Of a DNA stretch of 32,144 nt, positions 15,817-24,163 are shown piece after piece. Source of the DNA: Anaerolineaceae bacterium (GTDB lineage: Bacteria > Chloroflexota > Anaerolineae > Anaerolineales > Anaerolineaceae). The notes below the pieces were generated by a model. The model made no database searches, was not told where the DNA came from, and saw only the letters and a program-made list of their open reading frames with translations. The DNA is taken from the NCBI GenBank assembly GCA_016936755.1, contig JAFGXF010000113.1, forward strand, positions 1 to 32,144, given 5' to 3'. Each line of letters begins with the position of its first letter. Position 1 is the first letter of the stretch. Both the position numbers and the translations under genes were made by a program.

Positions 15817-16479
15817 ATGAGTGTTAGATCAGCTATTCCCCTTTTTATTATTTTAATAGCCAGCCTGGCTTGCTCTCTGCCTGGTTTGGCTTGGTTGCCG
15901 TTCCTGTCATCTGATCCGGTTAATGTACCGGGAACCATCTATTACGATGATTTCTCCAATCCCAATACAGGCTGGTATACCCAGTACACGGATGACCATT
16001 CCGTGCTGTATGATTGGGGTGGATTGCGTTTCCGCATCAACCGCAGCCACTTTGATATGTGGTCCTACCCGGATGGGATATATGCAGATGCGATCATCTG
16101 GGTCGAAGCGGCCAAACTGGAAGGAACGGATGACAACACATTTGGTTTGCTTTGTCGTATTCAGAATGATGGGGATTTTTATGCTTTTTTGATCAGCAGT
16201 GATGGCTACGCTGGTGTAGCCCGTCGGCGGTCTGGCGAATATCATGTGTTGAGCGATGACAACATGACATACAGTGAATTGGTTGCTTCCCCGACAGGCC
16301 TTTTCAGGCTGCGGGCTGTGTGTGAGGGTAGTGAATTGGACTTCTTTGTTAATGACCTGCTGGTTGCCAGCGCCATTGATGATGGGTTGATATCTGGCAA
16401 AGTTGGAGTTCTGGCGGGCACCTATGCCCAGGCCGGCGTGGATATCTTCTTTGATAATTTCATTGTAACCGTACCATGA
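15817..16479 (+). CDS. Probable lipoprotein with LamG/DUF1080-like beta-sandwich domain
   Basis: This 220-residue protein has an N-terminal hydrophobic segment ending in IASLAC-S, a lipobox-like site with Cys19 as the likely lipidated residue. The mature part reads as a jelly-roll domain: YYDDFSNPNTGWYT at its start, GGLRFRIN, FGLLCRIQNDGDFYAFLIS and a closing GKVGVLAGTYAQAGVDIFFDNFIV. This is the pattern of concanavalin-like folds such as DUF1080 and LamG that bind or cleave sugars, but no catalytic residues can be named. It sits on the outer face of the membrane. Its stop overlaps the mtaB ATG (ATGA), so it is the first gene of the operon. A link to RNA modification is not obvious. Confidence 0.72.
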   Translation: MSVRSAIPLFIILIASLACSLPGLAWLPFLSSDPVNVPGTIYYDDFSNPNTGWYTQYTDDHSVLYDWGGLRFRINRSHFDMWSYPDGIYADAIIWVEAAKLEGTDDNTFGLLCRIQNDGDFYAFLISSDGYAGVARRRSGEYHVLSDDNMTYSELVASPTGLFRLRAVCEGSELDFFVNDLLVASAIDDGLISGKVGVLAGTYAQAGVDIFFDNFIVTVP

Positions 16480-17747
16480 ATGTCTATCTGGATATGGTTG
16501 GCTGCCGCCTGAATCAGGCGGAACTTGAGTCAATAGCGCGGCATTTACGGACTGCCGGCCATTGCCTGGTGTCAACAGCCGGTCACGCAGAGTTGGTCAT
16601 CATCAACACCTGCACTGTGACAGGTGAGGCAGCATCAGACTCGCGTCAGAAGATCCGCCAGGCTGCCCGTGCAGGTGCGCAGGTGGTGGTCACCGGCTGT
16701 TGGTCCGAACTCGAACCAGATGCAGCTGCCGCATTCCCTGGTGTCAGCCATGTTATTCCCAACGCGTTTAAAGATCAGCTGGTCGGAATGATTTTGGGTG
16801 ACACTGGAACTGTAAGACCTGCTATGGGACGTATCCCGCTGACTGGCAACCGCCAACGAACCCGTGCTTTTATCAAGGTGCAGGATGGTTGTGATAATCA
16901 TTGCACTTTTTGTGTAACACGCCTGGCCCGCGGCCGCAGCATTTCCCGCCCAATTGGCGATATCATCGATGATATCCGCCATGCCATTGCTGGCGGTGCC
17001 AGAGAGGCCGTACTGACTGGTGTTCAGATCGGTTCATGGGGACGTGAATGGGATCCGGCAGCAAAGTTGTCAACCCTTCTTGAAGTGATCCTGGCTGAGA
17101 CCGACATCCCGCGTTTGAGGATCAGCTCAATCGAACCCTGGGAAGTGGATGATGCTTTAATTGCCATGTGGCAGGAACCCCGCTTGTGCCGGCATATTCA
17201 CCTGCCGTTGCAATCCGGATCAGCATCACTTCTCAAACGCATGGCACGCAGAACCGATCCTGCAATGTATGGCAAACTGGTTGAGAAGATACGAAAAAGC
17301 ATTCCAGGCGTATCGATCACCACCGATGTGATCGTCGGATTCCCGGGTGAGTGTGAAAAGGAATTTGATGAGACGCGTAATTTCATTACAACTACAGGGT
17401 TCTCAGGCGGCCATGTTTTTCTTTTCTCAGGGCGACCGGGGACTGCCGCGGTGAACTATCCCGACCAGGTTCCACATGTCATACGACGTATCCGCAGCAA
17501 GGCATTACGAGACATATTTGACAACCAGGCGGCAGCTTTCCAGAAGGATTTCATCGGTCAGCAGCTGGATGTGTTGTGGGAGCGTTCCATTAATACCTCG
17601 TCAGGTTGGATCTCTGCCGGGTTGAGTGATAATTATTTGAAGGTAACTGCCGCTACGGCTGGCAACTGCATGAATACCATCTCACCAGTAATGATTCAGA
17701 GGATTGAGAACAGCAGGTTGATTGGAGAGATTGCGAAGAATGAATAA
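16476..17747 (+). CDS. mtaB: tRNA t6A37 methylthiotransferase MtaB
   Basis: This 423-residue radical SAM enzyme has an N-terminal UPF0004 domain with the auxiliary cluster cysteines C10, C46 and C75 and a radical SAM core with C139-x3-C143-x2-C146 (CDNHCTFC). HIHLPLQSGS and TTDVIVGFPGE are standard MiaB/MtaB motifs. The N-terminal MVGCRLNQAE and the CTFCVTRLARGRSRS-like stretch favour MtaB, which adds a methylthio group to t6A37 of ANN-decoding tRNAs, over MiaB or RimO. A C-terminal TRAM-like part follows. The gene overlaps its upstream neighbour by four bases and the tgt gene by eight, in keeping with a tightly packed tRNA/rRNA modification operon. Confidence 0.9.
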   Translation: MNVYLDMVGCRLNQAELESIARHLRTAGHCLVSTAGHAELVIINTCTVTGEAASDSRQKIRQAARAGAQVVVTGCWSELEPDAAAAFPGVSHVIPNAFKDQLVGMILGDTGTVRPAMGRIPLTGNRQRTRAFIKVQDGCDNHCTFCVTRLARGRSISRPIGDIIDDIRHAIAGGAREAVLTGVQIGSWGREWDPAAKLSTLLEVILAETDIPRLRISSIEPWEVDDALIAMWQEPRLCRHIHLPLQSGSASLLKRMARRTDPAMYGKLVEKIRKSIPGVSITTDVIVGFPGECEKEFDETRNFITTTGFSGGHVFLFSGRPGTAAVNYPDQVPHVIRRIRSKALRDIFDNQAAAFQKDFIGQQLDVLWERSINTSSGWISAGLSDNYLKVTAATAGNCMNTISPVMIQRIENSRLIGEIAKNE

Positions 17748-18843
17748 AAATACCATACGGTTACGCAACCAACCGGTAAAATTGCCGGTCTTCATGCCGG
17801 ATGCCACTTTAGGCATTGTGCGTTCGGTGGATGCTGCTGATCTCGAAGATTGTCATATCCAGGCGGTGGTGATGAACACTTATCACCTGATGCAACGACC
17901 CGGCTCGACCACCATCGATTCATTGGGCGGCCTGCATGATATGTGCGGTTGGCAGCGACCCATCGTGACCGATTCGGGTGGATTTCAAGCGTATTCATTG
18001 ATCCAGGAAAATCCCAAGTTTGGTTCGATTACTGAGAAAGGCATCCACTTCAGACCAGAGGGCACTGCGCGTAAATTCCTCTTAACACCGGAGAAGTGCA
18101 TCCAGCTTCAGTTTGGATATGGCTCAGATGTGATCATCTGTCTCGACCAGTGTACCCATGTGGATGCCCCCCTGGACCAGCAGCAACAGGCTGTCGAGCG
18201 TACGGTACGCTGGGCAGGGCAGTGTAAAGCCGAGTACTTAAATCAACTCGAACATGCCAAGATTCGCGGGGATGCACGCCCCAAACTCTTCGCGGTCATC
18301 CAGGGCGGTGGTTATCGTGATCTGCGTAAGGCTTGTGCTGAGCAACTGTTGGAGATCGGATTTGACGGGTTTGGCTTTGGTGGCTGGCCGCTGGACAAAC
18401 AGGGTGTGTTACTCGATGAAATACTCGCCTATACACGCAGCCTGATTCCATCGGATTATCCGATGCATGCGTTGGGCGTGGGACATCCCCGGAATGTTGT
18501 GGCCTGCCATGACCTGGGATATGCATTATTCGACAGCGCCATGCCGACCCGGGATGCGCGCCATGGGCGTCTCTATCGTTATAACCAGCCTGACGGGGAC
18601 CCTGGTGCTGGATTGATGGGTGACTGGATGCGATACATCTATATTGATGATAAGAAGCATATCAAGTTGGATAAACCCATATCGGATGGGTGTGATTGCC
18701 TTTGTTGCCGGCGCTATTCGCTGGGTTTTTTGCACCACCTTTTTAAGATCAACGATCATCTTTTTTATCGGTTGGCGACGATGCACAACCTGCGGTTTAT
18801 GAGTCAACTGGAAGAACGACTCAGACTTCGCGCAATTGGATAG
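17740..18843 (+). CDS. tgt: Divergent tRNA-guanine transglycosylase (Tgt family)
   Basis: This 367-residue protein (from the ATG at 17740, GGAGAG 10 bases upstream; overlaps mtaB by 8 bases) keeps the Tgt hallmarks: D78 in TDSGGFQ, D136 in CLDQC, Q188 in VIQGG, the nucleophile D265 in LFDSAMPTRDARHG, and the zinc site C318-x-C320-x2-C323-x25-H349. Tgt swaps guanine-34 of certain tRNAs for preQ1 or queuine. The loop normally reading GGLAVGE, which lines the pocket around the base's 7-substituent, is GGWPLDK here (214-220), and FDCVMPTR is FDSAMPTR. Activity looks intact, but base preference may differ. With a queuosine-precursor importer gene nearby, salvage of queuine or another deazaguanine is plausible. 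Confidence 0.85.
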   Translation: MNKNTIRLRNQPVKLPVFMPDATLGIVRSVDAADLEDCHIQAVVMNTYHLMQRPGSTTIDSLGGLHDMCGWQRPIVTDSGGFQAYSLIQENPKFGSITEKGIHFRPEGTARKFLLTPEKCIQLQFGYGSDVIICLDQCTHVDAPLDQQQQAVERTVRWAGQCKAEYLNQLEHAKIRGDARPKLFAVIQGGGYRDLRKACAEQLLEIGFDGFGFGGWPLDKQGVLLDEILAYTRSLIPSDYPMHALGVGHPRNVVACHDLGYALFDSAMPTRDARHGRLYRYNQPDGDPGAGLMGDWMRYIYIDDKKHIKLDKPISDGCDCLCCRRYSLGFLHHLFKINDHLFYRLATMHNLRFMSQLEERLRLRAIG

Positions 18844-18847
18844 GAAA

Positions 18848-19666
18848 ATGGAAACAGCGGATATCGAAGGCCAGCTTGACAAATTGGAGGAGCAAGTCCG
18901 CCGGGGTGATCGCTACCGTGATGTTCAGGACGACTTGATCAGAGGTATCGGTCGCCGGGAATTACTAAAACGGCGAAATCTGCGTGAGGCGGTCAAGGCC
19001 ACCCGCTCCAAACTGCACCAGGTGGGTGGTGCATACCTGCCTGCTCCGCCGGATTATGCCGACTGGGTGGCAAGGCTTGAACAACTGCCCACTGACCGTC
19101 AGTCACCTGAATTGAAAAAATACTGCCAGGAGGTCATGCAGGTGCATGCCTCTACTCGCGAGCGGCTGCCGATCCTGAAGTACTTTTATGCTGAAACGCT
19201 GGAAGGCATTGCGCCCATTCAATCTGTTCTCGATCTGGCATGTGGTTTGAATCCGCTGGCACTGCCCTGGATGCCACTGGCAGATAATGCCGTGTATTAT
19301 GCCTGTGATATCTATGCGGGCATGGTGTCATTTATCAGCCGGTTTTTTGCCCACCTGCGGCAGAATGGCCGGGTTTGGGGTTGCGATCTGAGTCATGGAC
19401 TCCCAGTCGAAAAGGTTCATTTGGCTTTATTGTTGAAAGCCATACCCTGTCTGGAACAGCTGGACAAGGGATTACCCATGCGTTTGCTGGAAGATATCCA
19501 GGCACAATATATACTGGTATCTTTCCCGGTAGCCAGCCTGGGCGGTCGCAGCAAGGGCATGCGGGTTAATTATGAAACCCATTTTATGCGGTTGGTGAGC
19601 AGCAAATCCTGGCATATCGAAAGGTTCGAGTTCGCCGGTGAAATGGCTTTTTTGATATCCAAATGA
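18848..19666 (+). CDS. Rmt/FmrO-family 16S rRNA methyltransferase homologue, copy 1
   Basis: This 272-residue protein resembles the aminoglycoside-resistance methyltransferases RmtB/ArmA (about 250 residues), which make m7G1405 in helix 44 of 16S rRNA. Seen here are KLHQVGGAY (55-63), HASTRERL (100-107), the SAM motif DLACGLNPLA (129-138), D154 in CDIY, D180, K197 in LLLKAIPCLE and VSFPVASLGGRSKGM (224-238). The last stretch and LHAST-ERL closely match RmtB as I recall it. The ATG at 18848 follows the tgt stop by four bases with AGGA ahead; a TTG at 18836 is less likely. Its stop overlaps copy 2 (ATGA). Whether it methylates G1405 and protects against aminoglycosides, or serves a housekeeping role, is not known. 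Confidence 0.85.
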   Translation: METADIEGQLDKLEEQVRRGDRYRDVQDDLIRGIGRRELLKRRNLREAVKATRSKLHQVGGAYLPAPPDYADWVARLEQLPTDRQSPELKKYCQEVMQVHASTRERLPILKYFYAETLEGIAPIQSVLDLACGLNPLALPWMPLADNAVYYACDIYAGMVSFISRFFAHLRQNGRVWGCDLSHGLPVEKVHLALLLKAIPCLEQLDKGLPMRLLEDIQAQYILVSFPVASLGGRSKGMRVNYETHFMRLVSSKSWHIERFEFAGEMAFLISK

Positions 19667-20478
19667 TTACATCTGATGAACAGCAGGTCAGGGAATTGAT
19701 GGATTCGGTGGGAAAAAAGGCCGCCTATCAGACCATGCAAATCCCGGAAGCCACCCTGCGCGACCTGGCGGTCAAGGCATTGGCGCGCCAACCTTCACGA
19801 CACCTGGCATTAAAAAGCATGCGGCGCAAATTACATCAAATCACCGCTCCTTATCTTGGTGACCCGGATTATGGTCAGGCAACCCATGAAATGCACGCCT
19901 TATTTCAAGAGGGTGATCCCGATGCCATACAAAAATTTTGCCGGATGATCATGGCCAGTCATGTTTCCACTCGTGAAAGACTGCTGGTCCTGGATGGCTT
20001 CTACCTGCGCTTGTTTGATGAGCATGGTGTGCCGGAATCGATCATCGATCTGGCATGCGGTTTGAATCCATTGAGCCTGCGTTGGATGGGTCTGGGAAAA
20101 AAAGCACGTTACCGGGCTTATGACATTCATGCACCGCGGGTGGCATTTCTAAACGCGTTCTTTCAAATGGAAGGTGTGGCTGGCCAGGCATTTATCCAGG
20201 ATATCCTGGTGAATCCGCCGCTGCATACCGCGGATGCCGCATTCCTGTTTAAAGAAGCACACCGCTTTGAGGAACGTGAGACCGGATGTAATCGGGACTT
20301 GTGGCGCGCATTAAAGGTAAAAATTATTTACGTTTCACTCCCACCGCTCAGTATGACCGGTCGCCACGATCTGACTGGAAAAAACCGCAAACTGATCGAG
20401 CGCATTATTGCCGGGCAGTCATGGCGGGTAAATGAGATCAACTTCCCCAATGAACAGGTGTTTGTGATAGAGAAATGA
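19663..20478 (+). CDS. Rmt/FmrO-family 16S rRNA methyltransferase homologue, copy 2 (divergent)
   Basis: This 271-residue protein aligns with copy 1 almost without gaps: KLHQITAPY (56-64), SHVSTRERL (99-107), DLACGLNPLS (129-138), YDIH (153-156), D180 in FIQDI and K197 in FLFKEAHRFE. The two arose by tandem duplication and then diverged strongly. It differs in the C-terminal motif: SLGGR-KGM of the Rmt family is replaced by SMTGRHDLTGKN (230-241). This region helps bind rRNA in the family, so copy 2 may have another target base, or act with copy 1 as a heteromer. It is coupled by ATGA overlaps to copy 1 and to the rsmF-like gene. The family call is firm; the target is unknown. Confidence 0.8.
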   Translation: MITSDEQQVRELMDSVGKKAAYQTMQIPEATLRDLAVKALARQPSRHLALKSMRRKLHQITAPYLGDPDYGQATHEMHALFQEGDPDAIQKFCRMIMASHVSTRERLLVLDGFYLRLFDEHGVPESIIDLACGLNPLSLRWMGLGKKARYRAYDIHAPRVAFLNAFFQMEGVAGQAFIQDILVNPPLHTADAAFLFKEAHRFEERETGCNRDLWRALKVKIIYVSLPPLSMTGRHDLTGKNRKLIERIIAGQSWRVNEINFPNEQVFVIEK

Positions 20479-21956
20479 AAAACAAAAAAGTGCCTGTTGA
20501 GCCGGCAAAAGTCGATCCGGCAGAAATTTTGGAACGCTACCGGGCGCTTGTCCCGGCGGGTACATTTACCTGCATTGCACAAGGGTTGGGTGAACCTTTA
20601 CCGCCGGCATTACGGGTGAACAGATTACAGGGTATTGATAAGGTCATCTTTTCACGCTGGCAGACCCGTTATGGTTGGGAAGTGCAAACAGTTCCATTCT
20701 GCTCATCCGGCTGGCAGGTTTTTTCTGCCGCCACACCACCCAGCCAGACGGTTGAGCATTTGATGGGCGCTTTTTACATACAGGAAGCCTCATCGATGAT
20801 TCCCCCTGAGATGTTCGATTATGACCCTTCGCATCCTGAGCTGGTACTTGATCTGGCCGCATCCCCGGGTGGTAAAACCACTCATCTTTGTGACAAAATG
20901 GGTGACCAGGGACTGGTGATCGCCAACGATGCCAGCCGCTCACGTATCCAGGCACTGCACATTGCGCTGGAACGATGGGGTGCGATCAATGCTGCCGTTA
21001 CCTGTCAACCGGGCGAGTATTTTGGAACCTGGTTCCCGGGTGTTTTTGACAAGGTCTTGATTGATGCACCCTGCAGTATGGAAGGTTTGCGTACAACTGA
21101 TTCCCATCCAATGCGCGCTATCAGCAAGCATGAACGTGACAGTCTGGCAAACCGCCAGATACGTCTATTGACCAGCGCGCTTCAAGCTGTGCGTAATGGT
21201 GGACAGGTGGTTTATGCCACATGTACACTGGCCCCGGAAGAAGATGAACTGGTACTGCTGGCCATCAAAAAACGCTTTGGTACTGCGGTTGAGATCCTTT
21301 CTCCCCATGTGGGTATCCAGGCACCAGCTTTACCGATTTCCCGGACAGCAGAATATCCAGATATTATGCATTCCCTGCGAATCTGGCCACATCTCTATAA
21401 CACAGCCGGATTCTTTGCAGCTTTGATCCGCAAGAATTCAGCCATCGACGATAAGGCCGATATCCGCCCACCCCGATGGAGTTCGGCACGACGGGGCTGG
21501 ACGCAGATGAATTCCAAGATGACTGGTGAACTGGCGGGAATCATGTTGGATCAATATGGATTTAACCTGACCGCAGTCGTTGAGCGTCAGAGGCTCACCT
21601 TTTGGAAAAGAGACCAGCGCATTCAGGCTATCCCGGAAATATTCCTGACCCGCTTCGCGGACTTCCCGGTCATCTCTGCCGGATTGGAAGTGGGCAGGTT
21701 AATCGCCGGGAACCTGCAACCCTCACACGAATGGGCAGCCCGTTTTAACCGCCAATTCAACAGCGGGCAGTTGATCTTGCCGGCTGAACAAACAGACAAC
21801 TGGATGAAGGGCAACGATGTACAGCTATCCATCCCGGGTGGAAATCACCAGGGGCGGGTGTTATGCTTGATTAATGAGGATGGCCAGTTTTTGGGGCGGT
21901 GCAAGGTGCTACCCGGGCGGATTAAGAATCTGCTGCCGCGCCGGCTGGTGGTTTGA
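20475..21956 (+). CDS. RsmF/NSUN-type RNA m5C methyltransferase with C-terminal RNA-binding extension
   Basis: This 493-residue protein has FYIQEASSM (100-108), the SAM motif DLAASPGGKT (126-135), motif IV DAPCSMEG with C200, and motif VI YATCTLAPEEDE with the catalytic C250. The two cysteines are typical of RNA m5C methyltransferases. The N-terminal RVNRL and the about 180-residue C-terminal part (LTFWKRDQ, PGRIKNLLPRRLV) fit the RsmF (YebU) layout, which methylates C1407 of 16S rRNA next to the Rmt site G1405. RsmB is less likely because its NusB-like N-terminus is absent. The ATG overlaps the stop of Rmt copy 2. Its last 35 bases overlap the convergent rsmE gene. Confidence 0.87.
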   Translation: MKNKKVPVEPAKVDPAEILERYRALVPAGTFTCIAQGLGEPLPPALRVNRLQGIDKVIFSRWQTRYGWEVQTVPFCSSGWQVFSAATPPSQTVEHLMGAFYIQEASSMIPPEMFDYDPSHPELVLDLAASPGGKTTHLCDKMGDQGLVIANDASRSRIQALHIALERWGAINAAVTCQPGEYFGTWFPGVFDKVLIDAPCSMEGLRTTDSHPMRAISKHERDSLANRQIRLLTSALQAVRNGGQVVYATCTLAPEEDELVLLAIKKRFGTAVEILSPHVGIQAPALPISRTAEYPDIMHSLRIWPHLYNTAGFFAALIRKNSAIDDKADIRPPRWSSARRGWTQMNSKMTGELAGIMLDQYGFNLTAVVERQRLTFWKRDQRIQAIPEIFLTRFADFPVISAGLEVGRLIAGNLQPSHEWAARFNRQFNSGQLILPAEQTDNWMKGNDVQLSIPGGNHQGRVLCLINEDGQFLGRCKVLPGRIKNLLPRRLVV

Positions 21957-22695
21957 GTTCTCCCAATTCATACATGACCAGTGCTGTAATAACCAGGGCA
22001 GCTGTTTCCATGCGCAGGATGCGTTGGCCGAGACTGATCGGTTTCCAGTCATGCGCCATTGCCTGATGGGCTTCGATATCACTTAATCCCCCTTCCGGCC
22101 CGATCAACACAGCCACAGATGGTATCGTTGTCGTGTTGAGGGATGACAGGCTTTCCTTCAAACCCAGGTTGGTCTCTTTTTCCCAGGCAGCCAGGCAGAT
22201 GGTGCAATTCTGTTTCCCATGTTCCAATGCCTGTAACAACGGCATCACAGGCAGCAGGTGGGGGATGCTTGTCCGCCCACTTTGTTCTGCCGCTTCCCGA
22301 AGAATACCCTCCCAACGTTCGGTTTTATGGGTGGTACTGTCAGTTTCTCTCACCAGACTCCGGCTGGTGATGACCGGTATGAATGAGTTCACCCCCAGTT
22401 CGGTGCCTTTTTGAAGAATCCATTCGAACTTCATGCGTTGGGTCATGGCGATATACAGCGATATGCGGATCTGTGGTTCGCTAAAAGCTTCTGTTTCAGC
22501 AATGATCTCGCCTTCCACTCGCTCCCTTTCGACCAATGTCAACCGTACCAAACGCTCGATCGGATTGCCATCCAGGACGGTGATGACCGTACCGGGGGTT
22601 AACCGTAATACCAGTTTGATTTGACGCGCGGTCTCACCTTGAAGGCGGACGAATGGGGGCTGGATACAAGCTGCCGGAATGAAAAACCGATGCAT
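21922..22695 (-). CDS. rsmE: 16S rRNA (uracil1498-N3)-methyltransferase RsmE
   Basis: A 257-residue form starting MHRFFIP at 22695 matches the usual RsmE start; a GTG 16 codons earlier is possible but lacks a ribosome-binding site too. The N-terminal part is a PUA-like RNA-binding domain. The C-terminal SPOUT domain shows QKGTELGV, REAAEQSGR, VLIGPEGGLSD and LGQRILRMETAAL, which form the knotted SAM site. RsmE makes m3U1498 in helix 44 at the decoding centre. The gene's 3' end overlaps the rsmF-like gene tail-to-tail by 35 bases. A TATAAT at 22735-22740 on the minus strand could start a transcript about 33 bases upstream. Confidence 0.93.
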   Translation of the reverse strand: MHRFFIPAACIQPPFVRLQGETARQIKLVLRLTPGTVITVLDGNPIERLVRLTLVERERVEGEIIAETEAFSEPQIRISLYIAMTQRMKFEWILQKGTELGVNSFIPVITSRSLVRETDSTTHKTERWEGILREAAEQSGRTSIPHLLPVMPLLQALEHGKQNCTICLAAWEKETNLGLKESLSSLNTTTIPSVAVLIGPEGGLSDIEAHQAMAHDWKPISLGQRILRMETAALVITALVMYELGELKPPAGAAADS

Positions 22696-22734
22696 GATTA
22701 AATAACTGCTATACTTTGGTTGAGATTCATGGTA

Positions 22735-22740
22735 ATTATA
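22735..22740 (-). promoter_or_regulatory. Candidate -10 box of rsmE
   Basis: A perfect TATAAT on the minus strand lies about 40 bases before the MHRFFIP start. The hexamer 17 bases upstream (ATGAGT) matches the -35 consensus at only three positions. It lies in the 69-base divergent gap shared with the plus-strand transporter gene. Confidence 0.4.
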
Positions 22741-22764
22741 CACACAGAGGACTAATCACTCATC

Positions 22765-23490
22765 ATGACTGCCAGGTTAGAAAACCGCCCATACCGTTTT
22801 TTGGATATCATCATGGCCTTGTTTGTCACCGTGTTGATCGTCAGTAACATTTCCTCTTCCGCCAAAATCATTGATTGGGGATTCTCCATCGCCGGTATCC
22901 CGATGGCATTTGATGCCGGGACGTTGCTTTTCCCGGTCAGCTACATCTTTGGCGACATCCTGACCGAGGTATATGGTTTTCGTCGGTCAAGGCGGGTGAT
23001 CTGGATGGGATTCTTCTGTCTGGCTGTCTCTTCCCTGGTATTGTGGATTGTGAAGATCCTCCCGGGCGAAGCCACCTGGCAGACCTATGCCGGACAGGAT
23101 GCTTTTGAGGCCATCCTGGGAGGTATGAGCAGTGGTGGTATCGTGCTCGCCAGCCTGCTGGCTTATTTGATTGGTGAGTTCAGCAACTCGGTTTTACTGG
23201 CGAAAATGAAAGTGGCCACCCGGGGGTCATGGTTGTGGACTCGCACCATTGGTTCAACCCTGGTGGGTGAGGGTATAGATACACTGGCTTTTATTGCCAT
23301 CGCATCATTATTTGGTGTTTTCCCGTGGGAGTTATTCTGGACACTGGTCATCACAAATTACCTGTTTAAAGTGGGGATTGAAACACTCATGACCCCGCTG
23401 ACGTATCTGGTTGTTGATCGTCTTAAACGAAGTGAAAAAGAAGACTATTACGATACCAACACCAACTTTTCCCCCTTCGCCCGATCTTGA
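22765..23490 (+). CDS. Queuosine precursor transporter (YhhQ/VUT family)
   Basis: This 241-residue membrane protein has about six helices and the family landmarks FDAGTLLFPVSYIFGDILTEVYG (first long motif, about residues 49-71), SVLLAKMKVATRG and LVGEGIDTLAFI. It belongs to the YhhQ group (DUF165), known to import preQ0/preQ1 in E. coli and related bases elsewhere. It is divergent to rsmE and lies 3.9 kb downstream of the tgt-like gene on the same strand, which supports a queuosine-salvage role. No QueA, QueG or preQ-synthesis gene is present in the window. The stop is one base from the convergent rsmI stop, leaving no room for a separate terminator. Confidence 0.9.
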   Translation: MTARLENRPYRFLDIIMALFVTVLIVSNISSSAKIIDWGFSIAGIPMAFDAGTLLFPVSYIFGDILTEVYGFRRSRRVIWMGFFCLAVSSLVLWIVKILPGEATWQTYAGQDAFEAILGGMSSGGIVLASLLAYLIGEFSNSVLLAKMKVATRGSWLWTRTIGSTLVGEGIDTLAFIAIASLFGVFPWELFWTLVITNYLFKVGIETLMTPLTYLVVDRLKRSEKEDYYDTNTNFSPFARS

Positions 23491-23491
23491 G

Positions 23492-24163
23492 TCACTGATC
23501 TGATTTACCGGCAATGACCACTGTGTATTCGCCACGGATGTTCTCGTCTGCAAATGCTTGATTGAGTTGCAACAAGCTGCCGCGCCTGGTGCTCTCGAAC
23601 AGCTTGGTCAGGTCGTTGGATATGGAAGCCTGCCGGTCACCGAAAACGTCCAGGGCATCTGCCAGAAAGGCTTTCAACCGGTATGGGCTTTCATAATAAA
23701 CCAACGTGTGGGGACTTTCCACATCGGCGGCCAGAAAATTTCGGCGCGCACCGGGTTTATGTGGTGGAAAACCCCGAAAGGTGAAACTGTGAAGCGGCAA
23801 ACCTGAGAGGGTGGCCGCCAAAATCACCGCAGCAGCTCCGGGCACCCCTGTTATTTCCAATCCACGATCTGCAGCAGCCTTAACCAATAAATAGCCTGGA
23901 TCTGAAATGCCTGGCGTTCCAGCATTGGTCACCAATGCGATGTTCTGGCCTTCCTCCAGAAGCATGATCAGCTTTCCGACTGTTCTCTGCTCGTTATAAG
24001 CATGGAATGAGACCTGAGGTTTGTGTATCTCAAAATGTTTTAAGAGAAATCCGGTTTTTCGAGTGTCCTCGCTGGCGATCAAGTCCACTGATTTCAGGAC
24101 TTCGAGCGCTCTCAAGCTGATATCCTGCAGGTTTCCGATGGGCGTAGCGACCAGATACAACAT
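23492..24163 (-). CDS. rsmI: 16S rRNA (cytidine1402-2'-O)-methyltransferase RsmI
   Basis: This 223-residue protein of the tetrapyrrole-methylase fold has [15 protein letters not shown] at its start, [29 protein letters not shown] (SAM-binding loop), [18 protein letters not shown] and YYESPYRL. These are RsmI landmarks; RsmI adds a 2'-O-methyl to C1402 in helix 44, next to the RsmH site. It lacks the extra C-terminal domain of some RsmI proteins, so at 223 residues it is on the short side (E. coli 286). It starts three bases after the DUF456 stop and is the third gene of the T-box-controlled serS operon. Confidence 0.93.

Follow-up and report, generated by a model that had tools for sequence, protein, structure and literature searches.

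Tandem Rmt-type methyltransferase genes and a divergent TGT paralogue in Anaerolineaceae: a probable decoding-site modification module

To our knowledge, neither the chromosomal origin of the Rmt resistance genes nor the task that they perform in nature is settled. Members of this family methylate G1405 in helix 44 of 16S rRNA and give high-level resistance to 4,6-linked aminoglycosides. What, then, are two such genes doing side by side in the draft genome of an Anaerolineaceae bacterium (GCA_016936755.1)? The stretch of DNA that we analyzed, hereafter the window, comprises 32,144 nt (contig JAFGXF010000113.1, positions 1-32,144, forward strand). Within it, an FmrO/Rmt-type 16S rRNA methyltransferase gene encoding 272 residues, copy 1 (18848..19666, + strand), is followed by a paralogue encoding 271 residues, copy 2 (19663..20478, +). 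Both have ATG starts, and both open reading frames, first reported as two genes of 271-272 residues, proved to be real. Upstream lie an mtaB/MiaB-like methylthiotransferase gene (16476..17747, +; TIGR00089, 340 bits), taken here simply as a neighbor of the module discussed below, and, overlapping it by 8 nt, the gene for a divergent TGT-type transglycosylase of 367 residues that we call TGT2 (17740..18843, +; PF01702, 305 bits). Ahead of mtaB, positions 15817-16479 (+) encode a predicted lipoprotein-like product of 220 residues without a Pfam match. Downstream of the pair are an RsmF-like m5C methyltransferase gene of the NOP2/Sun family (20475..21956, +; PF01189, 130 bits) and three conserved neighbors, namely an rsmE-like gene for a 16S U1498 N3-methyltransferase (21922..22743, -; PF04452 and TIGR00046), a Vut_1/YhhQ-family transporter gene that recurs in many loci (22765..23490, +; PF02592, 166 bits), and rsmI, for the 16S C1402 2'-O-methyltransferase (23492..24163, -; TIGR00096, 217 bits against a cut-off of 168). 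YhhQ in other bacteria imports queuosine precursors. The first-pass annotation had described the pair as coupled by ATGA overlaps to both tgt and rsmF. Such overlaps do link the two copies with each other and copy 2 with the rsmF-like gene. Between the tgt stop codon and the start of copy 1, however, there is a 4-nt gap (TAG-GAAA-ATG).

Profile searches, a phylogenetic tree and predicted folds all upheld the proposed placement of both copies in the FmrO/Rmt family. Against Pfam FmrO (PF07091, cut-off 27 bits), copy 1 scored 172 bits and copy 2 scored 144 bits, and neither had any other Pfam match. The generic Rmt equivalog of NCBIfam (NF000466) was the top match of both, yet at 212.6 bits for copy 1 and 147.8 bits for copy 2 it fell below its cut-off of 250, a shortfall that counts against the interpretation offered below. 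The closest solved structure for each was Sgm (E-values of 4e-47 and 2e-27, respectively). AlphaFold2 models of copy 1 (mean pLDDT 96) and copy 2 (mean pLDDT 95) displayed a Rossmann fold and a helical N-terminal domain as in Sgm/RmtB, with TM scores to Sgm (3lcu) of 0.89 and 0.84. The two copies are 31% identical (BLASTP, 2e-41) and carry STRERL (102-107) and DLACGLNPL (129-137) at identical residue numbers, as had been noticed initially. The tree, for which support is quoted as paired values, resolved three clades: copy 1, grouping with single-copy Chloroflexota genes (98/97); copy 2 (100/98), joined at 100/99 by a form from f9, another family of the class; and the acquired enzymes RmtB, RmtC, RmtD, RmtE, RmtF and RmtG (99/94), outside of which both window copies fall. 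A separate tree gave a similar picture.

The gene immediately upstream had been taken for an ordinary tgt, and because of this the strongest association of the locus was missed. The canonical tgt resides elsewhere in the same genome (G000:C73, 509 bits). TGT2 scores 320.2 bits against TIGR00430, barely above the threshold of 306.75, and is therefore annotated as Tgt. In the numbering of the Zymomonas mobilis enzyme, its base loop reads GGWPLD, with W-P-L-D replacing L231-A232-V233-G234, and V45 is replaced by D. Among TGT2s of the family, W231, P232 and D234 are present in 77 of 77 and D45 in 76, the remaining sequence having a gap, and W231, P232 and D45 recur in all 11 TGT2s from other families; canonical TGTs of the same family have LSVGE and V45 (14/14). 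TGT2 retains D102, D156, Q203, G230, D280, R286 and R289, as well as the zinc ligands with few exceptions. It forms its own clade (100/100), and a TGT2 profile returned at least 513 bits for TGT2s and less than 288 bits for canonical TGTs. Judged by loop, profile and tree, TGT2 is a second, divergent TGT subfamily beside canonical tgt. In three genomes (G325, L148 4785-6015; G229; G323) the gene is interrupted by an in-frame stop or divided between two frames, which may reflect decay or sequencing error.

The distribution of TGT2 was surveyed in 399 Chloroflexota genomes besides the window's own, using the TGT2 profile at a strict threshold. TGT2 was detected in 69 of the 399 genomes, all of which are among the 76 that carry FmrO (Fisher 7e-70, a value that ignores kinship). 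The two genes are adjacent in 57 of these 69 genomes and lie within 2-9 kb of each other in five; in the other seven, which represent about four families, they are unlinked, lying 320 kb apart or on separate contigs. Single deletions of one locus can account for much of the co-inheritance seen within Anaerolineaceae. Seven genomes have FmrO without TGT2. Three of them (G053, G107 and G274) have FmrO at a contig edge, and two are highly complete: G176, in which the FmrO loop is degenerate, and G382, a clean exception. Across the phylum, orthologues of copy 1 adjoin TGT2 and often also rsmI.

The same partner accompanies acquired genes on plasmids. Using tblastn, we found TGT2-type genes, 43-50% identical to TGT2, directly upstream of rmtG, rmtD1/rmtD2 and rmtE2, the TGT2-type gene being truncated in the case of rmtE2; at rmtB2 the distance is one gene. 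D45 and GGWPL are present in the TGT2-type genes that accompany rmtG, rmtD2 and rmtB2, and the rmtE2 fragment has GGFP. The rmtG array runs rsmH-tgt2-rmtG-rsmI fragment (L301 3051-6117, NZ_CP021956.1); with rsmH and a piece of rsmI alongside, it suggests that the donor was a chromosomal operon for decoding-site enzymes. Further acquired loci with a TGT2-type tgt are those of rmtB2, rmtD and rmtE2 (L302, L303 and L304). TGT2 is the most faithful partner of FmrO/Rmt genes, both phylum-wide and beside several clinical plasmid genes. A review lists rsmH, tgt and 'rsmL' as accompanying rmtG (PMC9311965), and a genome paper places a 'tRNA ribosyltransferase' upstream of it (PMC3904158); the accessible portions of these two papers do not treat the rmtG-associated tgt as a separate subfamily. 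Short open reading frames that overlap the ends of rmtD1 (L306 4345-4728) and rmtE2 (L304 5561-5878) had no Pfam or NCBIfam match. As the first-pass annotation had supposed for the tandem, no report of an Rmt-type tandem, and likewise none of TGT2, was found in the open-access papers searched. Both the association of TGT2 with Rmt-type genes and the copy-2 subfamily are new, within known families.

RsmF, RsmI, RsmH and RsmE act around G1405, at C1407, C1402, C1402 and U1498, respectively (PMC12406665). The target GCCCGTCA around G1405 is intact in all 30 of the family 16S genes compared; a 16S rRNA gene was not found in the window's own draft genome. We consider it fairly probable that TGT2, copy 1, copy 2 and the RsmF-like gene constitute an inherited 16S helix 44 modification module, in which copy 1 would form m7G1405, copy 2 would act at another site and TGT2 would serve as a partner. 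Our best reading is that a decoding-site module of this kind is what the clinical Rmt genes were captured from. In such a module, the likeliest product of copy 1 is m7G1405, formed as an ordinary resident modification of the rRNA and expected to bring with it intrinsic resistance to 4,6-linked aminoglycosides. Copy 2, apparently an old duplicate that is still a SAM-dependent methyltransferase with an altered recognition motif and loop, would most probably modify a different nucleotide, within that stretch of rRNA or close to it. TGT2 would work together with copy-1-type enzymes on one RNA, most likely exchanging guanine, with the base or the RNA site differing from those of canonical TGT. In E. 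coli, RsmF is reported to be blocked at C1407 once Sgm or RmtC has methylated G1405 (PMC12406665), and therefore the order of action would matter; such a block is somewhat at odds with the presence of an RsmF-like gene in the operon unless the order or the target is different.

The part played by TGT2 can be read in two ways. It may act on a wobble G of some tRNA, in which case its link with rRNA methylases would reflect a shared tuning of decoding, and we regard this as a genuine possibility, although one that we lean against. Canonical TGT uses R286, R289 and the zinc site for tRNA, all of which TGT2 retains, and mtaB, whose product is directed at tRNA A37, adjoins TGT2 in the window. However, the genome already possesses a canonical TGT, and the partners that recur with TGT2 in independent settings are the rRNA helix 44 enzymes FmrO/Rmt, RsmI, RsmH, RsmF and RsmE. 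This repeated company, on chromosomes and plasmids, favors an rRNA substrate. TGT2 might be an rRNA transglycosylase that swaps a 16S decoding-site guanine, perhaps G1405 itself or m7G1405, in a pathway shared with the Rmt-type methylase, a specific proposal that we put forward tentatively and consider rather doubtful. Acquired Rmts function in hosts without TGT2, and therefore TGT2 is not needed for methylation. A role as a full eraser of m7G1405 was also considered, because a cationic base would be well accommodated by the W and D residues, but is unlikely: the rmtG and rmtD plasmids, which are annotated resistance plasmids, carry intact tgt2.

The two subfamilies were compared in alignments of 79 copy-1 and 73 copy-2 sequences. 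Copy 1 retains all hallmark motifs of G1405 (m7G) enzymes, including LLKxxPxLE and, as first noted, the SLGGRxKGM-type loop, with P200 and G237 in 79 of 79 sequences and K236 in 78. The SAM/catalytic positions R106, D129, D154, D180, K197 and E203 (copy 1 numbering) are kept in both subfamilies. Equivalents of Sgm R108, D156, D182, K199 and E205, which we take to be the catalytic and SAM-binding residues in the numbering of that enzyme, are present in both window copies and, bar D/E/N exchanges, in nearly all orthologues. All 73 copy-2 sequences are fixed for R159, E198, H200, R201, R205, G208 and L226, share an invariant motif of their own, KExHR..R..G, and lack G237 of the loop, bearing out the initial impression that the recognition region of copy 2 is different. 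The further statement that copy 2 has lost SLGGR holds for one glycine and the KGM part; the remainder stays and reads SMTGR in the window. An intermediate form, KEMPRFxRN, occurs in two f9 genomes and several further records, the gene lying beside rsmE. On the tree, copy 2 forms a long-separated sister clade, apparently the outcome of an old duplication. Since its differences from copy 1 are fixed and conserved, copy 2 is probably under selection as something else, and it has the appearance of a functional methyltransferase directed at a different site and not of a dead subunit.

Both copies could alternatively methylate G1405, with copy 2 as a diverged isoenzyme serving, for example, another condition. 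Copy 2 shares family and fold with copy 1, the window copy retains S-x-x-GR together with the K and E of LLKxxPxLE, and the positions equivalent to RmtC K20 and R50, presumably of functional importance, are mostly kept across copy 2. We nevertheless judge this unlikely, as every one of the 73 copy-2 sequences has H for P200, R for C201, E198 and R205 and no G237, compared with P200 and G237 in 79/79 of copy 1, and constant differences of this sort agree with a switch to another target. It appears more improbable still that copy 2 assists copy 1 as an inactive or regulatory subunit, as in a heterodimer such as Trm6/Trm61. The ATGA overlap and the maintenance of the genes side by side, the shortened recognition loop of copy 2, and the fact that no family genome encountered combines copy 2 with a certain absence of copy 1 would agree with such a partnership. 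Against it, copy 2 keeps the six SAM/catalytic positions listed above, with G133 and N135 varying only partly, which disfavors a dead protein; copy 1 stands without copy 2 in five of the loci read; and in f9 the copy-2-like gene lies away from copy 1, beside rsmE. The two-subunit enzyme suggested at first is thus unsupported.

Two further ideas about copy 2 were discarded. It does not seem to replace a lost helix 44 enzyme, as RsmH, the enzyme checked, is present in 18 of 18 genomes, pair or no pair. Nor does a 16S change track its absence, since the 1409-1491 variant belongs to genus g6 and not to the genomes lacking copy 2; three copy-2-less genomes, which are close kin, share a change further along helix 44. 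The variant itself, an A-U in place of a C-G pair at 1409-1491 of helix 44, a position that matters for aminoglycoside binding, was seen in three genus g6 genomes (L264, L267 and L268).

Finally, we examined how widely the arrangement is conserved. FmrO is present in 127 of 147 Anaerolineaceae genomes, usually in exactly two copies. Among 80 family loci read, the pair stands head to tail in 64, and the order TGT2-copy1-copy2-RsmF was found in 67 (61 contiguous and six with an insert between the copies). Five loci have only copy 1 between TGT and RsmF (L083, L096, L106, L125 and L141), and the remainder are mostly contig-end cuts or scattered genes. An RsmF-like protein scored above the cut-off in 122 of the 127 genomes with FmrO, against none of the 20 without it, and the latter generally have a single TGT. 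The near-complete family genome G176 (L152) lacks copy 2 as well as TGT2, and its single FmrO has the SLGGR loop in the degenerate form FPAPAAKAKRSG, as though the enzyme decays once the partner is gone. The GC content of copy 1 (52.4%) and copy 2 (50.5%) falls in the 50-53% range of all the genes from mtaB to rsmI, and that of the window is 50.7%. Since the tandem is conserved through the family, it is a resident and ancient arrangement, in agreement with the original view that the genes were not acquired. Although the family includes acquired Rmts, and homologues occur on plasmids, an acquired aminoglycoside-resistance cassette is scarcely credible and was rejected on family-wide conservation, together with the conserved operon, the host-like GC, the deep separate clades and the lack of any patchy distribution with plasmid-like flanks among the loci seen.

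In Chloroflexota, which have cultured members, Rmt-type enzymes would be ordinary, vertically inherited ribosome modifiers, making their ancestral role testable. The module adds a duplicated Rmt form of apparently different specificity and a tightly linked TGT paralogue, an uncharacterized enzyme hidden under the name Tgt and seen beside at least four acquired rmt types. Intrinsic gentamicin and kanamycin resistance is predicted for Anaerolineaceae. The kanamycin insensitivity of Thermomarinilinea (PMC4070665) was set aside as support because it is too indirect, the organism being a distant relative at about 88% 16S identity and streptomycin-insensitive too. For resistome surveys, PF07091 matches in sludge metagenomes may be resident genes. 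Were TGT2 to act on rRNA, base-exchange (7-deazaguanine-type) chemistry would enter ribosomes, and the clinical Rmt genes would be fragments of that pathway.

Among known systems, Sgm and the actinobacterial FmrO-type enzymes (G1405-N7) have the same catalytic residues as the window copies and provide their top structure match. Sgm serves for self-protection in an aminoglycoside producer, whereas in the window two such genes lie in tandem within a modification operon that includes TGT2. The acquired Rmt/ArmA enzymes (RmtB, RmtC, RmtD, RmtE, RmtF and RmtG) share family and fold with both copies, and rmtG, rmtD, rmtB2 and rmtE2 also share a TGT2-type gene in their upstream vicinity, but these genes are mobile and single, those tested form their own clade (99/94), and the KExHR motif of copy 2 was not seen in them. 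The rmtG operon, rsmH-tgt-rmtG-'rsmL' (PMC9311965), has the same kinds of partners, a TGT2-type tgt and C1402 methylases; the accessible portion of that review describes it as a plasmid gene context and does not link it with chromosomal modules. RsmF (m5C1407), RsmI and RsmH (C1402) and RsmE (U1498) are housekeeping enzymes acting around G1405, and genes of these kinds adjoin the window pair; none of the open-access papers searched reports RsmF, RsmI, RsmH or RsmE in a chromosomal operon with Rmt-type genes. Canonical TGT, as in Z. mobilis and T. maritima, matches TGT2 in fold family, in D102, D156, Q203, G230, D280, R286 and R289, and in the zinc residues, while the window TGT2 shares just 29-33% identity with the canonical TGTs found in its family and differs in having W-P-L-D and not L-A/S-V-G at 231-234, and D and not V at 45.
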